Below, piece by piece: positions 3,729 through 30,726 of a stretch of DNA of 42,825 nt. Made by a program: the position numbers and the translations under genes. Below the pieces are notes generated by a model that had not been told where the DNA came from, searched no databases, and saw only the letters and a program-made list of their open reading frames with translations. Source of the DNA: a virus; the IMG/VR virus record IMGVR_UViG_3300025313_000042, positions 1 through 42,825 of that record, one strand, 5' to 3'. Positions within the stretch are counted from its first letter, which is position 1. Each line of letters opens with the position of its first letter.

Positions 3729-3870
3729 AGCCCATTCTCTTCCTATGACGCTCCCTGGCATCTAACAGCTTTTGCTCGTTCTCAGCTACCCTGTCCCAGT
3801 GAGCCTTCTCCCGCTCCTCAAAGTCCTCGTCGGACTCGTCAGGATGCTGTGGTTCCCTTATCTCAAGCAC
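3709..3870 (-). CDS. Acidic coiled-coil peptide (53 aa)
   Basis: Starts at GTG 3870, overlapping the TGA of the methyltransferase gene, and overlaps the next gene by 20 bp. Composition is extremely charged: Glu/Asp-rich for the first 25 residues (QHPDESDEDFEEREKAHW), then Lys/Arg-rich, as in a short single helix. It fills a gap that would otherwise have no coding function. Possibly a chaperone or assembly peptide; unknown. Confidence 0.55.
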   Translation of the reverse strand: MLEIREPQHPDESDEDFEEREKAHWDRVAENEQKLLDARERHRKRMGYENSNR

Positions 3871-5183: not shown

Positions 5184-5957
5184 CTAGAATCTCCAGTCTC
5201 TTCCACCCTCTGCGTAGAAGTAGTCCACTTCTAGAACACGAGCATTGGCCGAACGATTCTCAAGCATCAGAACAGCAAAGAACAAGTCTGTGGTTGTTAA
5301 GAGAGTACCTGTTGAGAACCTCTTAATCAGCCTCAACTTATTATGTATGCTATCTGAGCTGATATGGCCTGAGTCACCTAGCCAGCACTCAGCGGAGCCA
5401 TCCTCATTAAGGATAACTTCAGCCTCAAACCAACGGTCTGCGGTAAGTGTAGCATTGGCCCTGGTGCCATTAGCTGAATCACTGATGGCTGCCGAACCAT
5501 CACCCATAACCGCTCGGAAGTCATCAGTAGTGCCATCAACATCATAGTTGAAGCCTACCATACCACCTGGGTTATAGGTCATTGTAGCTGTGGCAAACTC
5601 CGCAGGCATCACAGGAGTGTCCAGGGCCATAGTCTCAGCAAACCCAACGAAGATAGCACAGTCTACGTTGGAGTACTTAAACCTTGACCGCATAACTACC
5701 TTACCATCACGGGGGGCAAATTTACCTGCAACTAGTGCTGCGTTATCGTTGTCACCCGTGTCTGAGGTGATAGCTAGAACTCCACAGGACTCATCTACAG
5801 TTGTGGCAAAGGTGCCTTCATTAACTGAGGTAAAGCCTATACCATCATCCAGGGGAGCTACAAGGTTAGCAGCGCCCCAAACAATACTGTCATAGAGACC
5901 AGTAAAGTCACTACCAACCCAGACCCTACCACTGCCTATTGTTAATCCAGTTGCCAT
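5184..5957 (-). CDS. Concanavalin/LamG-like virion protein (257 aa)
   Basis: Jelly-roll style sequence. Short N-terminal arm, then FAPRDGKVVMRSRFKYSNVD and AIFVGFAETMALD, and the typical ADRWFEAEVILNEDGSAECW strand pair of LamG/concanavalin-like lectin folds; it ends in ARVLEVDYFYAEGG. Such proteins are capsid decorations or glycan-binding parts. Strong site AAAGGGAAAACA before the ATG. Fold assignment is by pattern only. Confidence 0.65.
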   Translation of the reverse strand: MATGLTIGSGRVWVGSDFTGLYDSIVWGAANLVAPLDDGIGFTSVNEGTFATTVDESCGVLAITSDTGDNDNAALVAGKFAPRDGKVVMRSRFKYSNVDCAIFVGFAETMALDTPVMPAEFATATMTYNPGGMVGFNYDVDGTTDDFRAVMGDGSAAISDSANGTRANATLTADRWFEAEVILNEDGSAECWLGDSGHISSDSIHNKLRLIKRFSTGTLLTTTDLFFAVLMLENRSANARVLEVDYFYAEGGRDWRF

Positions 5958-6007
5958 TGTTTTCCCTTTCTAAAGGATTCCTTCTCACAGCTCCCGCCAT
6001 GAGAACT

Positions 6008-6235
6008 TTAGAGTTGCTTCTTTGTGGTCCTAGTAGAGCTAGTAGGAAAGTGCTTGCTAGGCGCTACCTTACTAAACTCCGCCGGCGCCACTGGTGGCTT
6101 GTCAGCTTTGGCTCGACTGACAAGCCTGGATAACGTTTGTCGGTCTTCACCTGATAGAGAGCTATGCCCGCCTGCAAGGAGAGCCTCAGCAGCACCCACA
6201 TCACCAGCGTCCACGACTTCCTTAACAGTAGCCAT
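6008..6235 (-). CDS. Small helical protein after capsid gene (75 aa)
   Basis: Begins 2 bp after the capsid stop. The N-terminal half is helical and hydrophobic (VKEVVDAGDVGAAEALLAGG, then TLSRLVSRAKA); the C-terminal half is Lys/Pro/Thr-rich and disordered. It may be a capsid-binding or completion peptide. No family recognised. Confidence 0.55.
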   Translation of the reverse strand: MATVKEVVDAGDVGAAEALLAGGHSSLSGEDRQTLSRLVSRAKADKPPVAPAEFSKVAPSKHFPTSSTRTTKKQL

Positions 6236-6237
6236 GA

Positions 6238-7113
6238 CTAACTAGTCGGAGCGGTTGCGTCACTCAGATGGGCAAAGGCCCAGTTGCCTGCACTGCGCTC
6301 ACCGAAGCCATACTCATCAGTCATGAACTGCTCGTCAGCACCACCACCATAGGCTGGGTCACGACGCATCTCAGACTTGATACCCATGCCTAAGACGCAG
6401 ACTACAGCTTCCTTTGAGTGCGTAGCTCCCCTAGCGTTTGGAGTGGCATCAACTACAATGTTGCCATCTTCGAATACATTGGAGTTAGCTATACTACCTC
6501 GGAAGCCCTTACGGAAGGTTTCCTCAGTCATACCTACTGGAACTGCGTAAGTACCCACACCTGCTAGAATCTCGTCCTGAATGTCTTTAATCTGGAAGCC
6601 ATGCAGGACGGAGAAGATAGGCGCTGAGCTTGGTTCAGTTACGTTAGAGCCAATTCGACTGACTGCAGCGGTAACATGGCCAAAGGACATAGGGTTACCA
6701 GAGCCTGGACTTGCACCTGTGCCAAAGGTAGAGAACAGGTCCAGATAGTCTTCATCCTTCTTACGGCCCATAGCGTTACCTGCTAGAGCCCCAAACTTAC
6801 TGGTAACTACTGAAGCAATGCGTCGATAGGTGCGGTCAGTAATCTTGATAAGAATCTGGCTCATAGTCGGCGTTATGCTAAACAGGGTGTCAGCAATACT
6901 CTGAGCGTTTTCGTTACGGGTTGTCTCAGTAATATCCTGACTCTGCAACTGGGCAAGGCTAATCTCATTCCAACTCAGGCCCTCACCCTTAGCCTGGTCT
7001 CGTATATCACAGGTTCTCCTGTAAGTCCCCTCATACTCGCGGACTAGTCTGGCGTCCGCTACTACATATGGCTGGGACTCGGTAAGAGAACCAGTGGTGG
7101 TCTCACCAGCGAT
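6238..7113 (-). CDS. Major capsid protein, apparent ATC start (291 aa)
   Basis: Follows the scaffold gene and has the compact alpha/beta composition of phage capsids, with DRTYRRIASVVTSKFGALAG, AMGRKKDEDYLDLF, FGHVTAAVSRI, VLHGFQIKDIQDEILAG and TEETFRKGFRGS in order. The frame is open from the scaffold stop and contains no ATG, GTG or TTG before a TTG at 6948, which would remove about 55 well-formed residues (including ADARLVREYEGTYRRT). The sensible N-terminus is AGETTTGSL, preceded by ATC at 7113-7111, six bases after AGAAAGG. Either ATC is used as a start or ATG has been changed at one base. See findings. Confidence 0.8.
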   Translation of the reverse strand: MAGETTTGSLTESQPYVVADARLVREYEGTYRRTCDIRDQAKGEGLSWNEISLAQLQSQDITETTRNENAQSIADTLFSITPTMSQILIKITDRTYRRIASVVTSKFGALAGNAMGRKKDEDYLDLFSTFGTGASPGSGNPMSFGHVTAAVSRIGSNVTEPSSAPIFSVLHGFQIKDIQDEILAGVGTYAVPVGMTEETFRKGFRGSIANSNVFEDGNIVVDATPNARGATHSKEAVVCVLGMGIKSEMRRDPAYGGGADEQFMTDEYGFGERSAGNWAFAHLSDATAPTS

Positions 7114-7131
7114 GTCACACCTTTCTTTCTA

Positions 7132-8082
7132 TTAGCCGCCTTGCTGGCGGGCTCTAATCTCCTGAATGATCTTGATGGGAGTCTTAGGATCAAGCAGTAA
7201 CGCCTTCTCCTCTTCCTCCGTGCGATGACCACTGCCAGCGGCCCCTGTAGGCTTGGCAGGTGGACTCTTACCATCTCGCTGCTGAGCCTTCTCTGTAAGA
7301 CCAGCAACTTTCTTTGCAGTACCTTCTAGACGGGCTTTCTCTGCAGCTATAGCATCCTGGATAATTTTAGCATCACGGAGCTTATCACGCTCAACTAGGT
7401 ACTTAGTGAGGGCATCAGCATAAGCACTGTTCACCTGATTACGATTCTCAGCTCTAGCCACACTTGCACGCAGTTTAAGGTTCAGCTCCCTGACTGTAGC
7501 GTTGAACTCATCACTGGCTTCCTCTGTCAGGTCACTAGTCCAGCGCTCATCACTTGTGACAAGATTGACTAGAGTGGCCTGTGCATCACGCTCTTGGTTA
7601 CCAAAGAACACTCTGGCCCAAGATTCGTTAGCATGAAGCAGCCTGAGTAAGTCCCTCTTGGACTTTTCATCATCCAGGTCAAGATCACCTAATGCCTCGG
7701 AGAAGGTCTGGACTACTTGGCTACTAATAGCACGATTACTAGCCAACTGTAGCTCATCTTGATAGGTGGCCTCAACTTCAGCTAGGGTTGCAGCATGGGC
7801 ACGGGTGAGATGACTCTTGGCGCGGTTATAGCCTTCGTTCTCCGCTGCCTTAAGGCGCTCAGCCACTTGCTCATGTGTTTCCCAGTTCTCTGGAAGGTCT
7901 ACCGGCAGCTCTGGGTCACTCTCAGGCTCTTCACCCTCTTCAGGGGGCACAGGAGCGGACTCCTTTACAGCGGTCGGTGCAAGCTTAGCCTGTTCCTCAG
8001 CTACTAGCTTGGTACGGACTTGCTCCAAGGACTCATCCTGTGTAGGAGCCTCAGATGCTAGAGACGATACTTCTGGTGACAT
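7132..8082 (-). CDS. Scaffolding protein (316 aa)
   Basis: Directly upstream of the capsid gene, with scaffold character: acidic Pro/Glu-rich N-terminus (PPEEGEEPESDPELPVDLPE), long charged helices through the centre (HEQVAERLKAAENEGYNRAK, EKARLEGTAKKVAGLTEKA) and a short basic/Gly C-terminal region that ends in a helix (KTPIKIIQEIRARQQ), the usual capsid-binding end. Strong ribosome site CAGGAGTAAACC before the ATG. No protease motif, so removal of the scaffold is probably not self-driven. Confidence 0.75.
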   Translation of the reverse strand: MSPEVSSLASEAPTQDESLEQVRTKLVAEEQAKLAPTAVKESAPVPPEEGEEPESDPELPVDLPENWETHEQVAERLKAAENEGYNRAKSHLTRAHAATLAEVEATYQDELQLASNRAISSQVVQTFSEALGDLDLDDEKSKRDLLRLLHANESWARVFFGNQERDAQATLVNLVTSDERWTSDLTEEASDEFNATVRELNLKLRASVARAENRNQVNSAYADALTKYLVERDKLRDAKIIQDAIAAEKARLEGTAKKVAGLTEKAQQRDGKSPPAKPTGAAGSGHRTEEEEKALLLDPKTPIKIIQEIRARQQGG

Positions 8083-8134
8083 GGTTTACTCCTGTGTACT
8101 AGTGTACCACAACTGTTTGTTATTGTCAATATCA

Positions 8135-9853
8135 CTATCCAAACCTCGCTGACCCAGCTCTAGTTTGTGTTCCAGTGGGGGTGAAGAACCTAGTTGACTC
8201 TTCAATCTCTCTCAGAGCTTGTTCAGGTGTACCTAGACCCGCAACTCCATATGCTGAGATAAGTACATTACGGGTACTGGGGTCTAGGAACCTCCAGATA
8301 CCAGCCAGCATTCTAGGGTCTGGTAAAGCAATACTACCTGCCTCAGGTGGCGTTATCAATGGAGTGGCTCTAGTAGGATAGCGCCTTACACTCTGCTCTA
8401 TTTGGGGTCTCTCACGTAGGAGACCTCCTGGAGGACCAAATAGTGAACCTTCACCTGGAGCAATATTCATTACATCACTTTGTTGGAATCCAAAACGGTT
8501 GAAGTCGGCCATACTACCAATACCCATTTGCCGCCCTTGAGCATCAACATAGCCAATCGCTCCTGTTTCAATATTCCGAATTAGGCGGGGGCGATAACCA
8601 AGATTAAAAGCAGTTCCTGGACCACCAATGAGACCACCACCAAAGCGCTGTGGACCCATGATAAAGGAGCCACCAGGTAAACGGCCAGCTGTAGGTACGT
8701 CTCCCTGGAAGCCCATAGAGCCGTAGATAGGAGCTAAGGCAGCTCTGATACTGCCTACATCAAAGGAGCCGCCCTGCTGGGCACCAGCTATCAGTGGTAT
8801 GATCTCTACACGACCAGGACGAGCCATGTCCATAACTACTACTTCTTCGTCACCGTCGAAGTTACGCTCACCTGTTAGGACAGCACGTTTGGTGCTGGGC
8901 TGGTCAGCACTGAACCCATAGTCACCACCAGAGTTCTCATCATCAGGAGCGTCACCAGCATACTTTGACCTAGCGCTGAAGGAGCCATCGGCTCCTCGGT
9001 GCATATCTATAGTGCCACCACGAGCAAAGCCAAGACTGGGTGCTACTGGTAGCTGTTGCTGACCCTGGAGGGCACCTATAGTTTGCTCTATCTGTGGTAT
9101 ATTCATGCTCTCATTGACTTGTGGTATAGGAGCATTAGCTATACCCTGTAGTTGAGTATTGAAGCCTTGGGCTGGAGTAGTGCCCCGCTGTACACCGCCT
9201 TGGGCAGCTACAGCTCCACGAATGGGGTCTACTCCTGTAAGATCGGCTATTAGCTGTCGAGCACGTTGCTGGACTTCAGCTGCAGTACGGGCTAAGGAAC
9301 CGGCTTCGCCTAGGCGGGTGCGCTTCATGGCGTTCTCTTCTTGGAGACGCTGTAATTCAGCTGCTGCTTCTCGCTCTAAGCGGTTCTGCTCTTGTTGCCA
9401 AGCTCTTTGGTCTGCTTCACGAGCAGCTTGGGCGGCATCGGCAGCAGCCTGCTCAGCGGCATAGTTACGGGCAGGCTCACCTGTCCCTAAGCCTGTACCA
9501 CCTAGAGCCACACCGGCAGCTTCCCGCTCGCCTTGGTCTAAGGTTCGCCCTCTAAGTATCAGTCCAGTTCCATCTACATCCACTATCTGGCCAGTAGCTG
9601 TAACGTAAAGCCCAGGTACAAAGGAACGCTGAGCATTACGGCCTACCTCTTTTAGGACTAGCTTAGTTATGTACTTCTTCTTAAACCCAGTTCCCTTTAA
9701 TATACTGGTTCTAGATAGAGTATACCACTTATCTCCAACCTTAACGGTTTGCCCAAACAAGGTGTTTGGGCTAGAGCCACCAGGTGCTGGCGTAGGAGTA
9801 GCTGTACCACCACTACCTGCAGCTTGAAGAATATGCTGCCATGTATGAGTCAT
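8135..9853 (-). CDS. Internal virion protein candidate (572 aa)
   Basis: Low-complexity Gly/Pro/Thr start (about 12-35), a short beta domain (VGDKWYTLSRTSI to about 100), a charged coiled coil near 130-205 (ADAAQAAREADQRAWQQEQN, LEREAAAELQRLQEENAM), then a long Gln/Gly-rich part and a C-terminal region with repeated Arg/Pro/Gly. It is coupled by ATGA to the 1300-residue gene, as is common for ejection proteins of podoviruses. No enzymatic motif seen. The function is inferred from size, order and composition. Confidence 0.55.
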   Translation of the reverse strand: MTHTWQHILQAAGSGGTATPTPAPGGSSPNTLFGQTVKVGDKWYTLSRTSILKGTGFKKKYITKLVLKEVGRNAQRSFVPGLYVTATGQIVDVDGTGLILRGRTLDQGEREAAGVALGGTGLGTGEPARNYAAEQAAADAAQAAREADQRAWQQEQNRLEREAAAELQRLQEENAMKRTRLGEAGSLARTAAEVQQRARQLIADLTGVDPIRGAVAAQGGVQRGTTPAQGFNTQLQGIANAPIPQVNESMNIPQIEQTIGALQGQQQLPVAPSLGFARGGTIDMHRGADGSFSARSKYAGDAPDDENSGGDYGFSADQPSTKRAVLTGERNFDGDEEVVVMDMARPGRVEIIPLIAGAQQGGSFDVGSIRAALAPIYGSMGFQGDVPTAGRLPGGSFIMGPQRFGGGLIGGPGTAFNLGYRPRLIRNIETGAIGYVDAQGRQMGIGSMADFNRFGFQQSDVMNIAPGEGSLFGPPGGLLRERPQIEQSVRRYPTRATPLITPPEAGSIALPDPRMLAGIWRFLDPSTRNVLISAYGVAGLGTPEQALREIEESTRFFTPTGTQTRAGSARFG

Positions 9854-12800
9854 TTCACTAGCTCCTTCTGCCGCATGTACTGCCGATAGAGATCAATATA
9901 GCTGGCCTTGTAAAGATCAGGGTAGCGGCCCTTTAATTCGCCTTCATTCTCAACAGCGTACCTCAGCCAATCCTCATTCAGCCATTCAGGATGAGAACGC
10001 GCTTTGTGAATAAAGATGGCTGCTGCTGTCTGCTTTGGATCAAGTCCCTTTTCACTACCATAAGCAGTAATCAGCATTTCCACTGTAACTTCATCCGGCT
10101 TTGGTCCCATTTGCTGCTCCTTAGCATCAATCCATTCTCGTACATTTAGCAGCGTTTCTTCGGCCTTACGCTCATCTTCAGAAGTAAGCGCTAAAGGCTG
10201 CCCAGCGCCAGGGAATGCCAACTTAGTTGTTTCAAGGTCTGTGCGATACTTAGGTATCTCAAATAGTTGGTTGGTCTTGTAGGTCTGTACTCCAATACCC
10301 ACAGCTCCAGCAGCGGACAATGGCAGTCCAACTAGACCTTGTATCTTTACCGCCTCGTATACGTCATTAGCAATAAAGGGTGCCCAGAGGTCTACTAATG
10401 TTTTTGTAGACAGTACCTTCTTACCTCCGAAGGCTTGAGTTATGCCTGCAGCGTCAGTAAATAGCCTAACTACAGGCGCTTCCTTGTTAGCAAAGAATTG
10501 TCCCAACTCACGCTTAACATCTGCAGCATCGTATCCGGTATCCTTAGCTCCAGTTTCTGTAACCGCAGCTGCTCCCATGTGAGCAATTAAGCGGGCCATT
10601 GGTAGGAAGCCACCCCAAGGGTCTAAACGAGTGTAGCCTACTTTGGCTTTGAGCCAATCTGAGCCTCGAGACAGGGGATTGACTTCTACAGTGGCAGTTC
10701 CAGCTAAGGCGCCGGCGCTGCCTATAAGACCTAGAAGGGCTAGATCGCCTGCAACTAAGCCTACCATGTTCTTAGCAGCTAGTTGGCGGGCTGAGGGCTT
10801 AAACAGGCTGCCAGGTTGGAGTAGTGGATCGAGCATTACCTGGAAGCGGGCCACTAAGGCACGGCTGCTAAAGAAAGCGTTGATACCAGGCAGTATTCGG
10901 CCTATCTCTACATCACCATAGAATCTAGCGTGGTTAATGGTCTTGGCCAAGGCTTTATACTGGTCAGGGTCACGTACGCCAGAATCCCACATAGCCTGGG
11001 CGCGCTGGGCATAGACCTCTACGCCTTGCTTGTTCAGGTCTACAGCTAGGTTACGCTCGGAGGCAGCAGTCCAAGGTGTAAACTTCTTAAAGGTACGGCT
11101 TACAGCGGACTTGTTAATACCAGTGAACCCTGGTACACGCTCACTTGGAGCTACATCTGGCCCCCACTCATAGATGTGGCCTCCTACATCGGTGAAGCCT
11201 AGACCTTGACGCTCAGTGCCTTCAGCTGTGACACTGAACCAAGGGTTGGCTTCCCATGCTTTCTGTGTGGATCTGGCCTGGGCCTCACTGAAGGTGGCCT
11301 TGAGTACAGGCTTCCAGTTTGAGAGCCACTGACGAGGATGAGTCCAGCCTAGTATCATAGCATTGCGGAAGCGGCTACCTATATCTAGGGAGGTGACTGA
11401 AGTTAGGGTAGTGCCTATTAGACCAGTTAGCTCATCATAGGCGCGACCTGGTAGGCTACCTTTAGGAATCACCTTCTTGGCTAGTTGTTCAGCCTCAAAT
11501 AGAGCTGCTTGCTCAGCGCCAATAGCTGTTGGTACAGCTTCACCTGGCGCACCCTGTGGCACATCAGCCATCTCTAGTTGGAGTTGCTTACCTGAGCCAA
11601 TAGGAGTCCCCTCAATGGGACCAGCAGGTTCAGGAGGTGGCTCACCAAGATGGGCAGCAGTAGGCTGCCCACCCTCAGTAAATACTGGAGGTATACCTTC
11701 AACCCCAGGCCCAGATGGCGGTGCGGCTTGACTTAATCTAAATAACTGCCCAGAACCAGTTGGAGTGCCAGTAACTGGATCAACTGGTTGTAGATTGAAC
11801 AACTGACCCTGACCACCAGTGGGTTCTTCAAACATACCTGGTACTTCAGGTGCAGGAGGTCGTGTAGGGGGCTGTCCTGCACCAAACCTAGGCGCTGTTG
11901 TTGGTGAAGGAGCCCTACCTGGAGATGGTGCTGTAGCTGGAGTTGGTGTCTCTCGGCCAGGGATGTTGAAGGCTCCTGCACCTGGAGCACCACCACCTAC
12001 CTCTGGGATACGGCTCAGTTGCTCAATCTCTTCCTTGCTGTAGCCAGCTTCTCTTAGAGTGCGGCGTAAGGCTGGACTTAGGTACTGACCACGCCGTCTC
12101 ATGTACTTGTCTAAGGGAGCTTCTAGGTTTACATCTGTGACACCTGGGAAGGTAGTAGGAGGGATGGCTTCTTCTATCTCAGGAACTTTACCTGGTATAC
12201 CTGTTTCCTCTATGCCACGGTACTCGGTGGGGTAGGTACCAGGGCCAAGTCCACTCTGTAGGTCCTCTAGCTGCTCCTGTATTAAGTCACGCCTACCCTC
12301 AAGTCTGGAAGTATCTCTACCTGCTTCCTCAGCAGCTTCAATCCTATCCTCCAAATCATCTATCTGCTCTTGTAATCTAGCAGCCTGAGGAGAAGTTACC
12401 ATTGGAGGTCGCTCAGCAGTCACCAAGGTCTTGTCAAATCCCTCCACTCTGCCGTCAGCGAACCTAACCCATACACCCTCATTAGTCATATCTTCTACCA
12501 CACCAGACTGACCGGCAAACTCGCCAACTATACTTCGACTTGGAGCTATTGTTACACGACTACCCTTGCCAATCGGTGGTCTAGTCCCACCTACCTCAGT
12601 AGCCAACCGCCTAATCCCTGTAACTGGCTTCTGTGGCTGGTCAGAGACTACATACCAGGTTTCATTAGGTCTAGGGACTTGTACTTGACTACGAGGGATA
12701 CGGAACTCATAGACTTCACCACCACGACGTAGGGCAAAGGCTTCAGCTATTTCTCTATTGGTAACTAGGCCAGTACCAGGCCGTAGGACTCCGCCTTCTA

Positions 12801-13752
12801 GGCCACCTACACCTGAACCGTGATACAGGGTAACTATCTCCTGGTCACGTAGAGTCCTGGCCGCTGATTCATTCAGGCCGCGTAAACCAGTTACCAGTTT
12901 CCTAGCCCTTGGCGAGTTCATAGCACCACGCCTAATAGCTCTCCCTGCCTTAACTAGGTCATCTACCTTGGTAAAGCCTAGAATTGGTATAGGAGACTCT
13001 AGAATAGCTGCTCCGGCTATTTGGGAGCCTATGCCAACTTCTTCCAGACGGCGACTGAGGGCTTCATGTTCGGTCTTACCACCCACTATAGCACGACCAG
13101 CTACTGGAATATCCCCTGGTAGGCGCTTAGCAGCTTGTAGTGGAGTACGCTCTGATACAAGGCCGGTGCGCTGGCCAGCTTCTCTCAAGGATAGTAGTGA
13201 AGTAGCTCTCCTTACAGACTCTGGTGCACCTAGAGCCTCGGCTACTTCGTGAGGGCCAAAGGAAGCTGCTTCGTAAGCCCTCCCTGTTATAAGGGACTCA
13301 GGGTCAAGTACTCTACGCTGTGCTTGTCCAAAGAGACCTGCACGAGGGAGATCACGACCACCACTGGTAAGAGACTTATATACTGCCAGCTTCTGATCTT
13401 CTGCCTCCTGAGACTGGGGCTGGAATACTGAGCTAAGTCCTCTTCCAATAGTGCGCCCAATGACGCCAGTCCTTACCTCTGGTTCAACTGGAGGTAACGC
13501 TAGTTGTCTGCGTCTAGCCTCAGCCTGAAGCTCAAGTGGACCACGCTGTCCTGTGGCCAGTACATCTATCTTCCGGCGACCAGTTGGTGGCGTAACTTGG
13601 GATCGAACTCGATCCAGTGCATCACTAGCATTGCTAAGGCCTGCACCAACGATACCACTAGCTATTCCAAGAGCTATCTTACGGTTCTTCTCAAACTGGA
13701 GCCGGTTACGGTTGGTACCCCAACTGTGGTAACGGCCTAAAGGTACTGCCAT
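9850..13752 (-). CDS. Giant internal virion / ejection protein with ART-like segment (1300 aa)
   Basis: Between portal-proximal small genes and the scaffold, where podoviruses place ejection proteins. Residues 25-45 and about 240-260 are hydrophobic. Residues 306-353 resemble an ADP-ribosyltransferase core: LYHGSG at 309-314, TNREIAEAFA at 331-340, then GGEVYEFRIP. Residues 395-445 form an SH3/KOW-like beta unit (GKGSRVTIAPSRSIV, GVWVRFADGRVEGFD). Residues 455-500 are coiled coil, followed by a long Pro-rich linker to about 770 and a helical C-terminal third with a clear hydrophobic stretch (MVGLVAGDLALLGLIGSAGA). This is likely a polyvalent protein carried in the head and injected with the DNA. 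The ART assignment is by motif pattern only; ATP- or NAD-binding cannot be proven here. Confidence 0.6.
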   Translation of the reverse strand: MAVPLGRYHSWGTNRNRLQFEKNRKIALGIASGIVGAGLSNASDALDRVRSQVTPPTGRRKIDVLATGQRGPLELQAEARRRQLALPPVEPEVRTGVIGRTIGRGLSSVFQPQSQEAEDQKLAVYKSLTSGGRDLPRAGLFGQAQRRVLDPESLITGRAYEAASFGPHEVAEALGAPESVRRATSLLSLREAGQRTGLVSERTPLQAAKRLPGDIPVAGRAIVGGKTEHEALSRRLEEVGIGSQIAGAAILESPIPILGFTKVDDLVKAGRAIRRGAMNSPRARKLVTGLRGLNESAARTLRDQEIVTLYHGSGVGGLEGGVLRPGTGLVTNREIAEAFALRRGGEVYEFRIPRSQVQVPRPNETWYVVSDQPQKPVTGIRRLATEVGGTRPPIGKGSRVTIAPSRSIVGEFAGQSGVVEDMTNEGVWVRFADGRVEGFDKTLVTAERPPMVTSPQAARLQEQIDDLEDRIEAAEEAGRDTSRLEGRRDLIQEQLEDLQSGLGPGTYPTEYRGIEETGIPGKVPEIEEAIPPTTFPGVTDVNLEAPLDKYMRRRGQYLSPALRRTLREAGYSKEEIEQLSRIPEVGGGAPGAGAFNIPGRETPTPATAPSPGRAPSPTTAPRFGAGQPPTRPPAPEVPGMFEEPTGGQGQLFNLQPVDPVTGTPTGSGQLFRLSQAAPPSGPGVEGIPPVFTEGGQPTAAHLGEPPPEPAGPIEGTPIGSGKQLQLEMADVPQGAPGEAVPTAIGAEQAALFEAEQLAKKVIPKGSLPGRAYDELTGLIGTTLTSVTSLDIGSRFRNAMILGWTHPRQWLSNWKPVLKATFSEAQARSTQKAWEANPWFSVTAEGTERQGLGFTDVGGHIYEWGPDVAPSERVPGFTGINKSAVSRTFKKFTPWTAASERNLAVDLNKQGVEVYAQRAQAMWDSGVRDPDQYKALAKTINHARFYGDVEIGRILPGINAFFSSRALVARFQVMLDPLLQPGSLFKPSARQLAAKNMVGLVAGDLALLGLIGSAGALAGTATVEVNPLSRGSDWLKAKVGYTRLDPWGGFLPMARLIAHMGAAAVTETGAKDTGYDAADVKRELGQFFANKEAPVVRLFTDAAGITQAFGGKKVLSTKTLVDLWAPFIANDVYEAVKIQGLVGLPLSAAGAVGIGVQTYKTNQLFEIPKYRTDLETTKLAFPGAGQPLALTSEDERKAEETLLNVREWIDAKEQQMGPKPDEVTVEMLITAYGSEKGLDPKQTAAAIFIHKARSHPEWLNEDWLRYAVENEGELKGRYPDLYKASYIDLYRQYMRQKELVK

Positions 13753-13753
13753 A

Positions 13754-14059
13754 CTAGTCCTTACTTGCCTTTCGCTGTTCCTTCAGTCCTTCTAGTACAA
13801 ATTGGACTAACCTCCTAGGAATAGGCTTATCTTCAGGTAGATTATACCTGTCACGAAGCCTTAAGAACTCTGATTCTCGCCTAGCAGGATTGACCATGAA
13901 GTCCTCAAAGTCAGCTAGGCGTTCCTGACGGGTAAGCTTGGTAGCATTAGGGTCAGCAGGGGACACTATATCTGACCTAACAGCCCTAGCTGAGTCCGTC
14001 ATCTGTGCCTTAGCGTCGCGGAAGGCTTCTACTAAGCTGTCAAATGGAGACTCAGGCAT
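13754..14059 (-). CDS. Small helical head-region protein (101 aa)
   Basis: Starts at ATG 14059, overlapping the stop of the 30-residue zinc peptide; the longer frame above it belongs to that peptide's region. The product is charged and helical (SPFDSLVEAFRDAKAQMTDS, RQERLADFEDFMVNPARR) and ends QFVLEGLKEQRKASK. No family recognised. The position next to the portal suggests a portal- or assembly-linked role. Confidence 0.6.
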   Translation of the reverse strand: MPESPFDSLVEAFRDAKAQMTDSARAVRSDIVSPADPNATKLTRQERLADFEDFMVNPARRESEFLRLRDRYNLPEDKPIPRRLVQFVLEGLKEQRKASKD

Positions 14060-14144
14060 TACTACACTCCATCCAGCACTCAAAACATAACCAACCATCG
14101 GAGCCTAACTTTACAGCAGGATAACCACATTGCACACAGAGCAT
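14052..14144 (-). CDS. 30-residue zinc-ribbon peptide
   Basis: Its ATG overlaps the TAA of the portal gene (TAATG) and its TGA overlaps the ATG at 14059. MLCVQCGYPAVKLG leads to WLCFECWMEC: two CxxC knuckles, enough for one zinc ribbon. The tight double overlap and the paired CxxC argue for a real gene below the usual size cut-off. Function unknown. Confidence 0.6.
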   Translation of the reverse strand: MLCVQCGYPAVKLGSDGWLCFECWMECSNA

Positions 14145-16066
14145 TAGTATGGTCCCACACCAGTATTAGGCATCTCTTGCTCAGGCTGGGGGCCTGTAGG
14201 ATTGGTACTGAAGGGAATTCCTGCCCTGGCAAACTTTCTAGCCTGACCATCCCCTGCTCCATTAGCACCCTGGCCAGTAGCTAACTGGCCAAACTGGGCT
14301 GCTATGTCTGCAGGTAGTTGTCCGCTGGCCACTAGCTGCTGTAATTGGGCTACATCCATACCCTCGTCCTCAGCTAGATCTATTTCGGACTCCTTAACCA
14401 GAAGACGCTTGTAGAAAGCCTTTGACTCCTCTGACATCAGCAGCTCCCAAGTTAGAGCCCTCTTGAACTCCTCCATAGGGCGCTGAATATCCATTACTTG
14501 TTCCATTACCCAGGCTGGGCTGATAGGGAGGCCGGCTTCCTTAGCCTGTTGCATAATAGAGACGCCTAATTGAATATCAGCCCGTCGGCTCACAGGCAAC
14601 TTCATCTTATACTCAGACTTAAGCACTACACGGAAGTCCCTCAACTCATCTGGCTCTAGGGTGATTTTAGGCCCCTTGCCTTTAGGAGTTAGGGAGACGG
14701 ATTCACCAAAGGCTACTATACTGCGACTAATCATATCTGCAGCGTTGAGGTCAGCTGCAGCTACAGCCTGAGATAGTCTACTCTGCTTCATCTTGGACTG
14801 CTCTATAATGGAGTTACGGGACCAAGCAGGTTCACCACTAGGGCCAGTCGCCCCCTCCAGAGCCTCTACAGCGCCGGAGTTCCGTTCGGCTCTAGCGAGG
14901 GCAAACTGGGCTATAGCTAAGGTCTTCTCACCATATCTGGGAGTGAATAGAGGCTCTATGTTCTCTTTCTCCATACCCTCACTGTTACCAGTACGGAGTT
15001 CCCAGAGGTCACCCTGGAACATATTAGTGGGGTCAGAGTTGCTGCCTTCACCAATTAAGTTGTCCTCTTGTAACCACATCTTAAATATAGGTAGGGAGTC
15101 AAACTTAGAAGCTGTGGCAGCCTCTGACAGGCGCCTGTTAGCAGCTTTGATAAGGGCGATACTGGCATCTGAGACTCCCATCCAGTATTTACCAGGCTCC
15201 TTCTTGTGTGAGGTGGCACCTGGAGTGATCTGGATGACTGGAACTCCCAGACCGTGCTCTATAGAGCGCACAATTCGTTCCATATCCTGAGGAAAGGAAC
15301 TGGACTCACCTTTGAGAATGCCATAGGTCAACCAAGCCTGGTTGCTGTAGATAATTAAGGTGAACTCGTCTCCAAGATCAGTACTCTGGTAGTCCACCAG
15401 TCCAGATAGTTCTTTAGGGCTGAACATACTGCATAGGTCGTAGCCGTTGACAGTCTGCCAACTGATTAGCTCTTCCTCCATACGACCAAAGCTAGGAGGG
15501 AAAGTGGACTCTGCAGGTAAGTCTACCCACATGACTGGTAGTGGGGCTTGGCCTATCCACTGACCATGACGCTGGGTCCACTCATCTAGAGACTCGTCCT
15601 CCTTTATATAGGGAAAGTCCCAGTAGTACATATGGCCTGGGACTATAATACGTGCAGCACGGCCTAGAAGGCACATACTAGCTCTTTCCCTGAGTATGGG
15701 AGAATCTAGAGGTGGATTGAGCTGGTCTATAGTCTCATTCAGGGCAACCTCTACACGCTCTGCAACTGCCTCACTACGGGAACCCTCACCTATGTACTGG
15801 ACACCGATCTCTGCAGGGTAAGGGAATAGGGAGGCAATAAGGTCTACTTCGCGGCGCAGCTCATTGGCTGTCATACGCTCAGGAGTGATACGCCTACGTC
15901 TGCCTTTGGCAGCTGTGTCTTCCTGTGGTACTAGGTCTTCATCCCAGTACATTTCGTTTCGTAGATCGTCTAGTTCCTTCTGTTTACCTCCCCAGTAACG
16001 CTGCACATGGGCAAGGAGTTCTCTGCAGTACCCTATAGTAGGCTCGGTTTTGGTGTCACTGGGCAT
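14144..16066 (-). CDS. Portal protein (640 aa)
   Basis: Second gene of the packaging pair; ATG overlaps the terminase stop as TAATG. It has the length and build of podoviral portal proteins: N-terminal helices (YCRELLAHVQRYWGGKQKEL), a stem/clip beta part (MYYWDFPYIKEDES, QWIGQAPLPVMWVDLP), a long helical wing with RRLSEAATASKFD and QFALARAERNSGAVEALEGA, and a Gly/Gln-rich C-terminus. It forms the dodecameric DNA channel at the capsid vertex. No single signature motif, but size, position and secondary-structure order agree. Confidence 0.8.
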   Translation of the reverse strand: MPSDTKTEPTIGYCRELLAHVQRYWGGKQKELDDLRNEMYWDEDLVPQEDTAAKGRRRRITPERMTANELRREVDLIASLFPYPAEIGVQYIGEGSRSEAVAERVEVALNETIDQLNPPLDSPILRERASMCLLGRAARIIVPGHMYYWDFPYIKEDESLDEWTQRHGQWIGQAPLPVMWVDLPAESTFPPSFGRMEEELISWQTVNGYDLCSMFSPKELSGLVDYQSTDLGDEFTLIIYSNQAWLTYGILKGESSSFPQDMERIVRSIEHGLGVPVIQITPGATSHKKEPGKYWMGVSDASIALIKAANRRLSEAATASKFDSLPIFKMWLQEDNLIGEGSNSDPTNMFQGDLWELRTGNSEGMEKENIEPLFTPRYGEKTLAIAQFALARAERNSGAVEALEGATGPSGEPAWSRNSIIEQSKMKQSRLSQAVAAADLNAADMISRSIVAFGESVSLTPKGKGPKITLEPDELRDFRVVLKSEYKMKLPVSRRADIQLGVSIMQQAKEAGLPISPAWVMEQVMDIQRPMEEFKRALTWELLMSEESKAFYKRLLVKESEIDLAEDEGMDVAQLQQLVASGQLPADIAAQFGQLATGQGANGAGDGQARKFARAGIPFSTNPTGPQPEQEMPNTGVGPY

Positions 16067-17511
16067 TAGTAACCTCCCCAGAGGCTTCTGACTCTACGTT
16101 GAGGTTGAGGCCGTGCAGATTCAGCTAGACAACAGGCCATTGCAAGTGCGTCCATCCTGTCGTCATGCCTACCATAGGGCACGAGGCACAGCTCTGTTTC
16201 AAGGCTAACACCATCGAGTAATGGTAATCCTTTTGGAAGAAATAGACGATTACTGGCGAATAAGGAATCGAGGTAATCTGCACGGCTCACCTTGTCTCTA
16301 TCTAGTGCTTTAATGCGCTGTCTCATAGTCTCTTTGGTACGGTACTGTATCTCTTCCAATGGGAGCTTGTACCTGCGTTTCATACCTTGGATAAGGCTGA
16401 GCTGGAAGCCTACTGTCTCAAGACCTACCTTACGCAGACCATTGACTCTTTTAGCCCGCTTTACTATCTCTAGCTCTAAGTCAGGGGTCTCTAGGCGGGC
16501 TGCAAACATATCCACTAAGTAAATTACACTAGGGTTGGGCTTGATATCTACACCAACGGTACAGATGGCAGCGTAGTCTGCACTGGTCTTGAGGGAGGCT
16601 GCAGGGTCTACAGCCATATAGAAGGCTAGGGGCCGGTTGGGAATGGTGGAGGCATCCCAGTAGCTAATGTGTTCTCTCTTGATACGATTGCCTTCAGTGG
16701 CCTGAGTATTACACATATAGGTTAGAGCAAACAGCCTGTCGCCCTTCTTACGTCTTAAGGCCTCAAGTTTCTCCTGGGGGAATAGCTTAGCACTAATGGT
16801 AGGCCCCCAGGGGTAGTCACCAGCAATAGGCATCTCATAAATAGCGAAGCCCATGTCTGCAAAGGTGGGTACTAAGTCGTTCTCACCCCATCTGGTCATA
16901 ATACCTACTATACGACCGCCTTCGACGGCTCTGTCAATGATTACACCACGCAGCTTACTACGCTGCTGTTCCATAGTGGTGTCACTGGTAACGTCTTCCT
17001 GGTTAGTGGGATCATCTATGACTACAATATCGAAGTGGGAGCCCTGATAGGGGCCATTGAGGCCACAGCCTAGAATTGTAGGATCAGGATTGTGGCTGTC
17101 ACGTAGCACAAATAAGGTAGTCTTAGTCCACTGGCCATCAGGGTCTCTCTGGATACCAAACGCTGCCCTGTAAACAGGGTTACTCTCAATGGTACGCTGC
17201 ATAGCCATAACGTTACGCTCGGCCTGTTCACCAGCCTTCTGAAGCCATAGAATGCGGATATTGGGGTTCTGGCCTATTTTCTTTTCACACCACATACGCA
17301 CGGTCGTACTCTTATAAGTGTCAGGAGGGCAAATTATAACCAGTTCGTTGCCAGTCTCAAGAGCCTCTTCCCAAGCTTCCTGATGTTGCTCTATCTCCAA
17401 GTTATGGACTGCTTTGGCATAAGCTCTTAGATCCCCATAACGGGCTGCTACTACCTTGGTGTCAAACTCACTTACATCGGCTGGGTGGGACTGAACGGAG
17501 GTAAGGCTCAT
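16066..17511 (-). CDS. terL: Large terminase subunit, TerL (481 aa)
   Basis: Packaging ATPase-nuclease. ATPase: a Walker A-like loop ICPPDTYKSTTV that keeps Lys-Ser but lacks the usual glycines, Walker B IVVIDDPTNQ with the catalytic acid, and GGRIVGIMTRWGENDL as coupling motif. Nuclease: acid in FYMAVDPAASLKTSADYAA, then GLETVGFQLSLIQ, then PYGRHDDRMDALAMA. The start chosen is ATG 17511 (MSLTSVQSHP) preceded by GGGTGGG; the frame is open to a TTG at 17625, which would overlap the upstream gene. Coupled to the portal gene. Confidence 0.9.
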   Translation of the reverse strand: MSLTSVQSHPADVSEFDTKVVAARYGDLRAYAKAVHNLEIEQHQEAWEEALETGNELVIICPPDTYKSTTVRMWCEKKIGQNPNIRILWLQKAGEQAERNVMAMQRTIESNPVYRAAFGIQRDPDGQWTKTTLFVLRDSHNPDPTILGCGLNGPYQGSHFDIVVIDDPTNQEDVTSDTTMEQQRSKLRGVIIDRAVEGGRIVGIMTRWGENDLVPTFADMGFAIYEMPIAGDYPWGPTISAKLFPQEKLEALRRKKGDRLFALTYMCNTQATEGNRIKREHISYWDASTIPNRPLAFYMAVDPAASLKTSADYAAICTVGVDIKPNPSVIYLVDMFAARLETPDLELEIVKRAKRVNGLRKVGLETVGFQLSLIQGMKRRYKLPLEEIQYRTKETMRQRIKALDRDKVSRADYLDSLFASNRLFLPKGLPLLDGVSLETELCLVPYGRHDDRMDALAMACCLAESARPQPQRRVRSLWGGY

Positions 17512-17587
17512 CCCACCCAGCCTGTAGTCCGGGCAGCACCAGTAACCGCCCCAGGCACTGGCGCTGCCCAAGAAGGAAGAATGGCTG

Positions 17588-17785
17588 TCAATCGTAACCT
17601 TGGCGGCCCTTCCAGGGGTCGCCAAACTTCTTTAGGCTATTACGGAACTGACGCTCTTCGGCACAGTTCTTACATATACCCTTACTGAACTCCCCATCGG
17701 GGGATTCTATGACCCAGTGGTGGTTACAGGGACTAGACTCTATTACTAGCTGTTCACCCTTTGGACCTACTAGAAGTGCAGGCAT
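17588..17785 (-). CDS. Zinc-site protein of packaging region (65 aa)
   Basis: The central pattern is SSPCNHHWVIESPDGEFSKG then ICKNCAEERQFRNS: Cys and His followed by CxxC, a possible one-zinc fold. Proteins with CNHHWxIExPDG...G.CxxCG occur next to terminases in other phages. Starts with TAATG coupling to the preceding zinc ribbon gene. Possibly binds DNA near the packaging site; unproven. Confidence 0.65.
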   Translation of the reverse strand: MPALLVGPKGEQLVIESSPCNHHWVIESPDGEFSKGICKNCAEERQFRNSLKKFGDPWKGRQGYD

Positions 17786-30530: not shown

Positions 30531-30546
30531 AAAAGAGAGGTGTATC

Positions 30547-30726
30547 ATTTCATGCAGTTGGTTAACCACTGAGCAAGTAAAAGAGTACCTACAGCTAAAG
30601 GACAGGGTTAGTGTCTATAACTTAACTAAACAGGGCTTTCTAAAGGCTCACCCTCTGGGGACTAGTCGTAAGAGGTATTGTCTGGAGGAGATACAGAGGG
30701 CCATGGGAGTAGAGAAAGATGACTGA
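30547..30726 (+). CDS. Excisionase/MerR-like HTH protein, apparent ATT start (59 aa)
   Basis: SWLTTEQVKEYLQLKDRVSV then NLTKQGFLKAHPLGTSRKRY and CLEEIQRAMG: the helix-turn-wing of excisionase and MerR-like proteins. The frame has no ATG, GTG or TTG after the upstream stop. ATT at 30547 lies six bases after GAGAGG and would give MSCSWLTTEQV. ATC at 30544 is closer than usual. Overlaps the next gene by 8 bp. Confidence 0.6.
   Translation: MSCSWLTTEQVKEYLQLKDRVSVYNLTKQGFLKAHPLGTSRKRYCLEEIQRAMGVEKDD

Follow-up and report, generated by a model that had tools for sequence, protein, structure and literature searches.

A major capsid gene in an uncultivated phage that probably begins at an AUC codon

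Where does the ribosome begin a major capsid gene that offers it no standard start codon? The question is raised by the virus record IMGVR_UViG_3300025313_000042, whose entire stretch of 42,825 nucleotides, called the window below, was analysed here. Its major capsid gene lies on the minus strand at positions 6238-7113, with 291 codons from an ATC at 7113 to the stop TAG at 6240-6238. It follows a scaffold-like gene (7132-8082, minus strand), an open reading frame with an ATG, a Shine-Dalgarno (SD) energy of −6.9 and a C-terminus that resembles the gene preceding the capsid gene in relatives. The minus strand from 7140 to 7100 reads GGCGGC TAA TAG AAAGAAAGG TGTGAC ATC GCT GGT GAG ACC: the scaffold stop TAA (7134-7132) is followed by an in-frame TAG (7131-7129), after which the capsid frame (KERCDIAGETTTGSL) is open from 7128 to 6238. 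The original prediction held that this frame has no ATG, GTG or TTG from the scaffold stop to codon 56, and our reading of the frame bears this out; the first such codon is TTG 6948, codon 56 counting from ATC. A standard start is thus confirmed to be absent for the conserved capsid N-terminus. To call ATC no accepted start codon at all, as the same prediction did, goes too far: NCBI table 11 counts ATC and ATT among its possible starts and infC uses them, rare as they are.

The identity of the protein is suggested by homology, predicted structure and gene order. In a tblastn search, the window capsid matched the major capsid protein of Pelagibacter phage HTVC112P with 25.9% identity over 93% of its length (E 1e-10), and residue 1 of the query aligned with the annotated start of the HTVC112P protein. 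The order scaffold-capsid is common to the window, HTVC112P and relatives. An AF2 model of the capsid protein, for which 15 sequences were aligned, reached a pLDDT of 72.7; Foldseek found 372 matches to it below 1e-3, among HK97-fold capsids and encapsulins, the best being 8vb0_B (E 1.4e-10). Both the modelled fold and the scaffold-first gene order point to an HK97-fold major capsid protein. Beyond the scaffold-like gene, the large structural genes at 8135-16066 (572, 1300 and 640 aa) had no Pfam or PHROG match and are only weakly alike in relatives; as virion proteins, their products are poorly described.

The codons ahead of TTG 6948 behave as a gene. Codon-bias scoring places the beginning of coding in the capsid frame at 7116, and the first 55 capsid codons are conserved in all relatives, whose own starts fall at the ATC end. 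The closest relative found, with 79% identity, came from a scan of bacterial genome contigs: L049, in a metagenome-assembled genome (MAG, G012) labelled Gemmatimonadetes bacterium nzgw227. Between the window and L049, pS is 0.79 and pN 0.20 over the alignable part of codons 2-55, against 0.84 and 0.17 over the rest of the gene; the two ends of the L049 capsid gene read in different frames, and the two parts were compared separately. The L049 capsid gene carries two ten-N runs (L049:3082-3091 and 3814-3823), which are scaffold joins. In five further relatives, pN is well below pS across codons 2-55. Judged by these substitution patterns, codons 2-55 are true coding sequence under purifying selection. 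The alignment of related capsids, by which the original prediction was to be checked, contains no homologue that begins at the downstream TTG 6948.

The candidate start for this N-terminus is the near-cognate ATC at 7113-7111 (minus strand), separated from the scaffold TAA by 18 nt. The coordinates of the original prediction all proved correct, including the placing of this ATC six bases after the end of AGAAAGG. It is the sole in-frame ATN or CTG codon from the scaffold stop to about capsid codon 37, and the sole near-cognate codon near the N-terminus with a suitably spaced SD. The SD-like GAAAGGTG (7118-7125, minus strand) stands 4 nt 5' of ATC, with a duplex energy of −3.9 kcal/mol. This sequence, GAAAGGUG, is present but weak: it is the weakest of those compared, against −4.6 to −11.1 kcal/mol in relatives at their proper starts.

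The relatives suggest what stood at this codon before. Capsid relatives from IMG/VR, with 28-68% identity, align through the N-terminal region and start at its beginning. In L049, the sequence CTAGGAGTAAGCA ATG TCG GGA GAA ACG ACA ACT GGC corresponds to ATC GCT GGT GAG ACC in the window, so that the L049 ATG (MSGETTTGSLTDSL) lies exactly over the window ATC. Relatives with 56-62% identity have one extra codon (M-x-x-G-E-T) and their ATG is one codon further upstream; more distant ones have an ATG or GTG start no more than two codons from the window ATC position. The proposed change from ATG to ATC is therefore exact at that codon with respect to L049, and displaced by one codon with respect to the 56-62% relatives. 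The simplest history would be that the window and L049 lost one codon in common, and that the window lineage later exchanged G for C. Of 298 genomes in the phylum assigned to the L049 MAG, 3 contain capsid relatives, though the contigs may have been misbinned; the two newly found relatives start with ATG.

Similar starts recur in related contigs. When about 290 strongly coding genes of the window and seven related contigs were screened, two stood out as lacking a standard start: the window capsid gene and one gene of contig G002 (IMGVR_UViG_3300005253_001103, which also supplied the 68% capsid relative); the six other contigs had none. With G009 and G011 (IMGVR_UViG_3300037247_000872) added, convincing cases stand in the window, G002 and G011, and none in seven related contigs; ATA and CTG starts were not seen among the convincing cases. 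G002 and G011 are relatives of the window in part only, their capsids being 68% and 24% identical to that of the window, respectively.

The flagged G002 gene, of about 629 codons, is named portal-position gene after its place beside the terminase gene. It begins AGGAGGGCGTTTCTC ATT CCT GAG; its G011 counterpart, with 84% protein identity, has CTT ATC CCT GAG at the same aligned codon. DNA identity in this pair is 7/15 just before ATT/ATC versus 13/15 just after. Both genes have 26 upstream codons devoid of a standard start, and the first one downstream is at codon 30. Scans for further relatives, with single proteins and with alignments, returned the same two contigs alone; no Pfam or PHROG model and no named phage matched this gene, and the terminase had distant named-phage matches only.

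A second gene of the structural region, 505 codons long, begins AAGAAGGGGACTAAGAA ATC GCA GAC AAC in G011, where an in-frame TAA lies one codon upstream, and AAGAAGGAGAGCAAGCC ATC GTA GAC GAC in G002. Here ATC faces ATC at the same aligned codon, with AAGGAG in one and AAGGGG in the other, a stop lying 1 or 9 codons ahead in the frame, and no standard start downstream until codon 41 or 50. The N-terminus of this ATC gene had no named-phage match. In G011, a third gene of the structural region (L056:9779-11029, 417 codons) reads CGGAGGTAAGCC ATC GCC ACT; the ATG further down at codon 13 lacks a useful SD, the search turned up no homologue whose N-terminus aligns, and it is the SD at the ATC that points to the ATC as a start. 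A further G011 candidate, L057:2128-2547, was dropped, as a GTG at codon 40 with a strong SD is the better start. That a shared property is likelier than one error, as first proposed, gains support from these two contigs, which conserve ATT/ATC starts in two genes besides the capsid gene.

The capsid gene of G002 takes a course of its own. It has GGC where others have ATG (L011:2381-2501, also L030, minus strand, near 7069), and its apparent start is a GTG after AGGAGG, about 27 codons further upstream. G002 and G011 share the scaffold (73%) and the portal-position gene (82-84%), while the capsids of G011 and the window are only 24% alike; recombination at the scaffold-capsid junction may for this reason have produced the extension of the G002 capsid.

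A second window gene had been credited with the same problem as the capsid gene, which holds in part. It lies at 30547-30726 on the plus strand, and its 59 residues include a real HTH_17 domain (Pfam E 1.4e-6, residues 5-50). A standard start is indeed absent: there is no ATG, GTG or TTG in frame at its beginning. The candidate start is ATT 30547-30549, preceded by the SD-like GAGAGGTG (30535-30542, plus strand; energy −7.1). This SD, GAGAGGUG, is placed 4 nt before the ATT, the same spacing as at the capsid ATC. However, an ATG at 30552 is one base out of frame, and a one-base frameshift could explain the case: the gene starts either at ATT 30547 or at ATG 30552 with a +1 indel after it. No relatives of this gene were found in viral contigs. 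Exactly two copies of AGGTGTNNCATH exist in the window, one at each of the capsid and 30547 starts. A shared AGGTGTNNCAT motif was rejected as an explanation, being exact only at the two window sites, no more frequent than chance when one mismatch is permitted, and absent before the G002 and G011 starts.

We consider it probable, at roughly 70%, that the capsid protein begins at the near-cognate AUC, directed there by the SD and perhaps aided by translational coupling. In this mechanism, the 30S subunit would be placed at the AUC (7113-7111) by the SD sequence GAAAGG(UG), possibly with the help of a ribosome just off the scaffold stop 18 nt upstream. The fMet-tRNA would pair with A and U of the codon and be mismatched at the third base, and the N-terminal peptide would be AGETTTGSLTESQPYVVADAR. 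The window lineage would have changed its ATG to ATC, related contigs using AUC or AUU at conserved positions in other structural genes. We infer the initiation with fMet at AUC, the help from coupling and a host tolerance for such a start in a highly made protein. The near-cognate interpretation of the original prediction thus gains from the position of the ATC, from a second contig that carries it and from the G002 and G011 starts, and loses some ground with the second window gene, which may be a frameshift.

Initiation by fMet-tRNA at AUU, AUC and AUA is known, and IF3 discriminates against it (PMC4611024); re-initiation is itself sensitive to IF3 (PMC2268962). In M. smegmatis, in the presence of an SD, ATC is slightly active, making up 0.2% of the selected pool versus 9.8% for ATT (PMC4633059). 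So low an activity would fit badly with the most abundant virion protein. Nor does the capsid SD compensate for the poor start codon, weak as it is at −3.9 kcal/mol; enough capsid might be secured by a host that permits such starts or by strong transcription.

Several other contributions were considered. At five of seven near-cognate sites, the stop of an open upstream frame lies within 18 nt, some of these frames perhaps not being genes. Coupling as the sole cause was rejected, as the portal-position genes have no upstream stop of this kind. No tRNA genes, initiator or other reading AUY, were found in the window, G002, G003, G004, G011 or L049, which disposes of a phage tRNA reading AUY in the contigs checked. 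Avoidance of CATG or of other 4-mers was discarded as the force behind the change from ATG to ATC or ATT: the observed/expected ratio of CATG is 0.71-0.81 in all four contigs, one of them without such starts. The mRNA structure around the ATC is unremarkable (z −1.2).

The best of the competing explanations, to which we give a small but appreciable chance, accepts the ATC as true and takes it to be harmful: the assembled population would carry a capsid gene that is weakened or dead and survives briefly through co-infecting copies with a standard start. The codon is indeed one base from the ATG of the nearest relative, its SD is weak with no visible compensation, and AUC initiation is poor in the bacteria tested (PMC4633059). 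Against this, two contigs with differences elsewhere agree on ATC as their consensus, and the remainder of the capsid gene is intact. Moreover, such codons outlast long divergence, as the conserved ATT/ATC starts of G002 and G011 show.

An error of sequencing or assembly at one base, with a true G at 7111, would restore the ATG seen in L049. We judge it very improbable. The IMG/VR contig 3300025322_000626 (L009), from another metagenome, covers positions 5507-17731 of the window at 99.85% identity, with 15 mismatches and a few gaps over 12 kb, nearly all at the far end. Its capsid gene has the same ATC, which makes a random assembly error unlikely, the samples of the two contigs being possibly related. 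The original prediction had allowed for a G at 7111; the only other contig, L009, also has C. The other conserved window genes showed no break in frame, and the codon class recurs in G002 and G011, so that four sites would need like errors. At 17520-17705, over the start of the terminase gene and a small upstream ORF, L009 differs at 18 positions, compared with one in the preceding 12 kb.

Equally far-fetched is another route to the same N-terminus. Translation could begin at GTG 7118-7116 and undergo a −1 shift, begin at GTG 7120-7118, meet UGA and undergo a +1 shift, or read through from the scaffold. These two GTG codons do stand just before the ATC, and scaffold and capsid share one frame in the window; yet this frame relation is not conserved in relatives, and readthrough would have to pass the tandem TAA and TAG. 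A frameshift would have to take place no more than two codons from the start, where there is neither a slippery heptamer nor a way for the initiator tRNA to re-pair. Nor is there such an arrangement at the HTH_17 gene or the G002 and G011 genes, all of which have ATY at SD spacing. Finally, a shorter capsid made only from TTG 6948, the first standard start, or from another internal start is scarcely credible, because coding bias extends to 7116 and in every relative the conservation of codons 2-55 comes close to that of the rest, the relatives starting at the ATC end, and the TTG has no useful SD (−2.7, spacing 12).

Initiation at AUC would have practical consequences. Gene finders restricted to ATG, GTG and TTG would drop the first 55 residues of the capsid protein, and by the same rules would cut at least 29 residues from the front of the portal-position proteins that two related phages encode. 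Conserved ATT/ATC pairs of the G002/G011 type are an experiment-free way of finding more such cases in metagenomic phages. If AUC supports synthesis at the level of a capsid protein, either the host treats AUY unlike E. coli and M. smegmatis do, or the phage compensates. More tentatively, and with the odds somewhat against it, there may be a group of uncultivated phages in which AUC and AUU are regular starts of essential, abundant virion proteins, from the capsid and portal-position genes to other structural ones; their host would initiate at AUY far better, or the IF3 sensitivity of these codons would serve the timing or balancing of late genes.

Among known systems, the HTVC112P scaffold-major capsid pair is the nearest in content, with a homologous capsid (26% identity) and the same gene order, but its capsid gene has a standard ATG start. 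The gene for IF3, infC, starts with AUU in E. coli and AUC in Streptomyces, and shares with the capsid gene an AUY start of the class discriminated by IF3 (PMC5472188, PMC4611024); it differs in encoding a host factor made at low level under autoregulation, whereas the window capsid is an abundant virion protein with no apparent feedback loop. The sigR gene of Streptomyces starts at GUC, also with C as its third base; missed by gene finders and repressed by IF3, this start was shown experimentally (PMC5472188), but in a bacterial regulatory gene and at GUC instead of AUC. The terS gene of Streptococcus thermophilus phage TP-J34 is a phage packaging gene annotated with an AUU start (AAGGAGGTggatgtATT), the sequence being confirmed by repeat sequencing (PMC3952083). 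It is a single gene for the small terminase with a strong SD, in contrast to the capsid gene described here, whose SD is weak and whose related contigs conserve AUC/AUU in other genes. Starts at AUC and AUU are thus known; what is new, with respect to the open-access literature, is their use for a major capsid gene and their conservation in structural genes of related phages.
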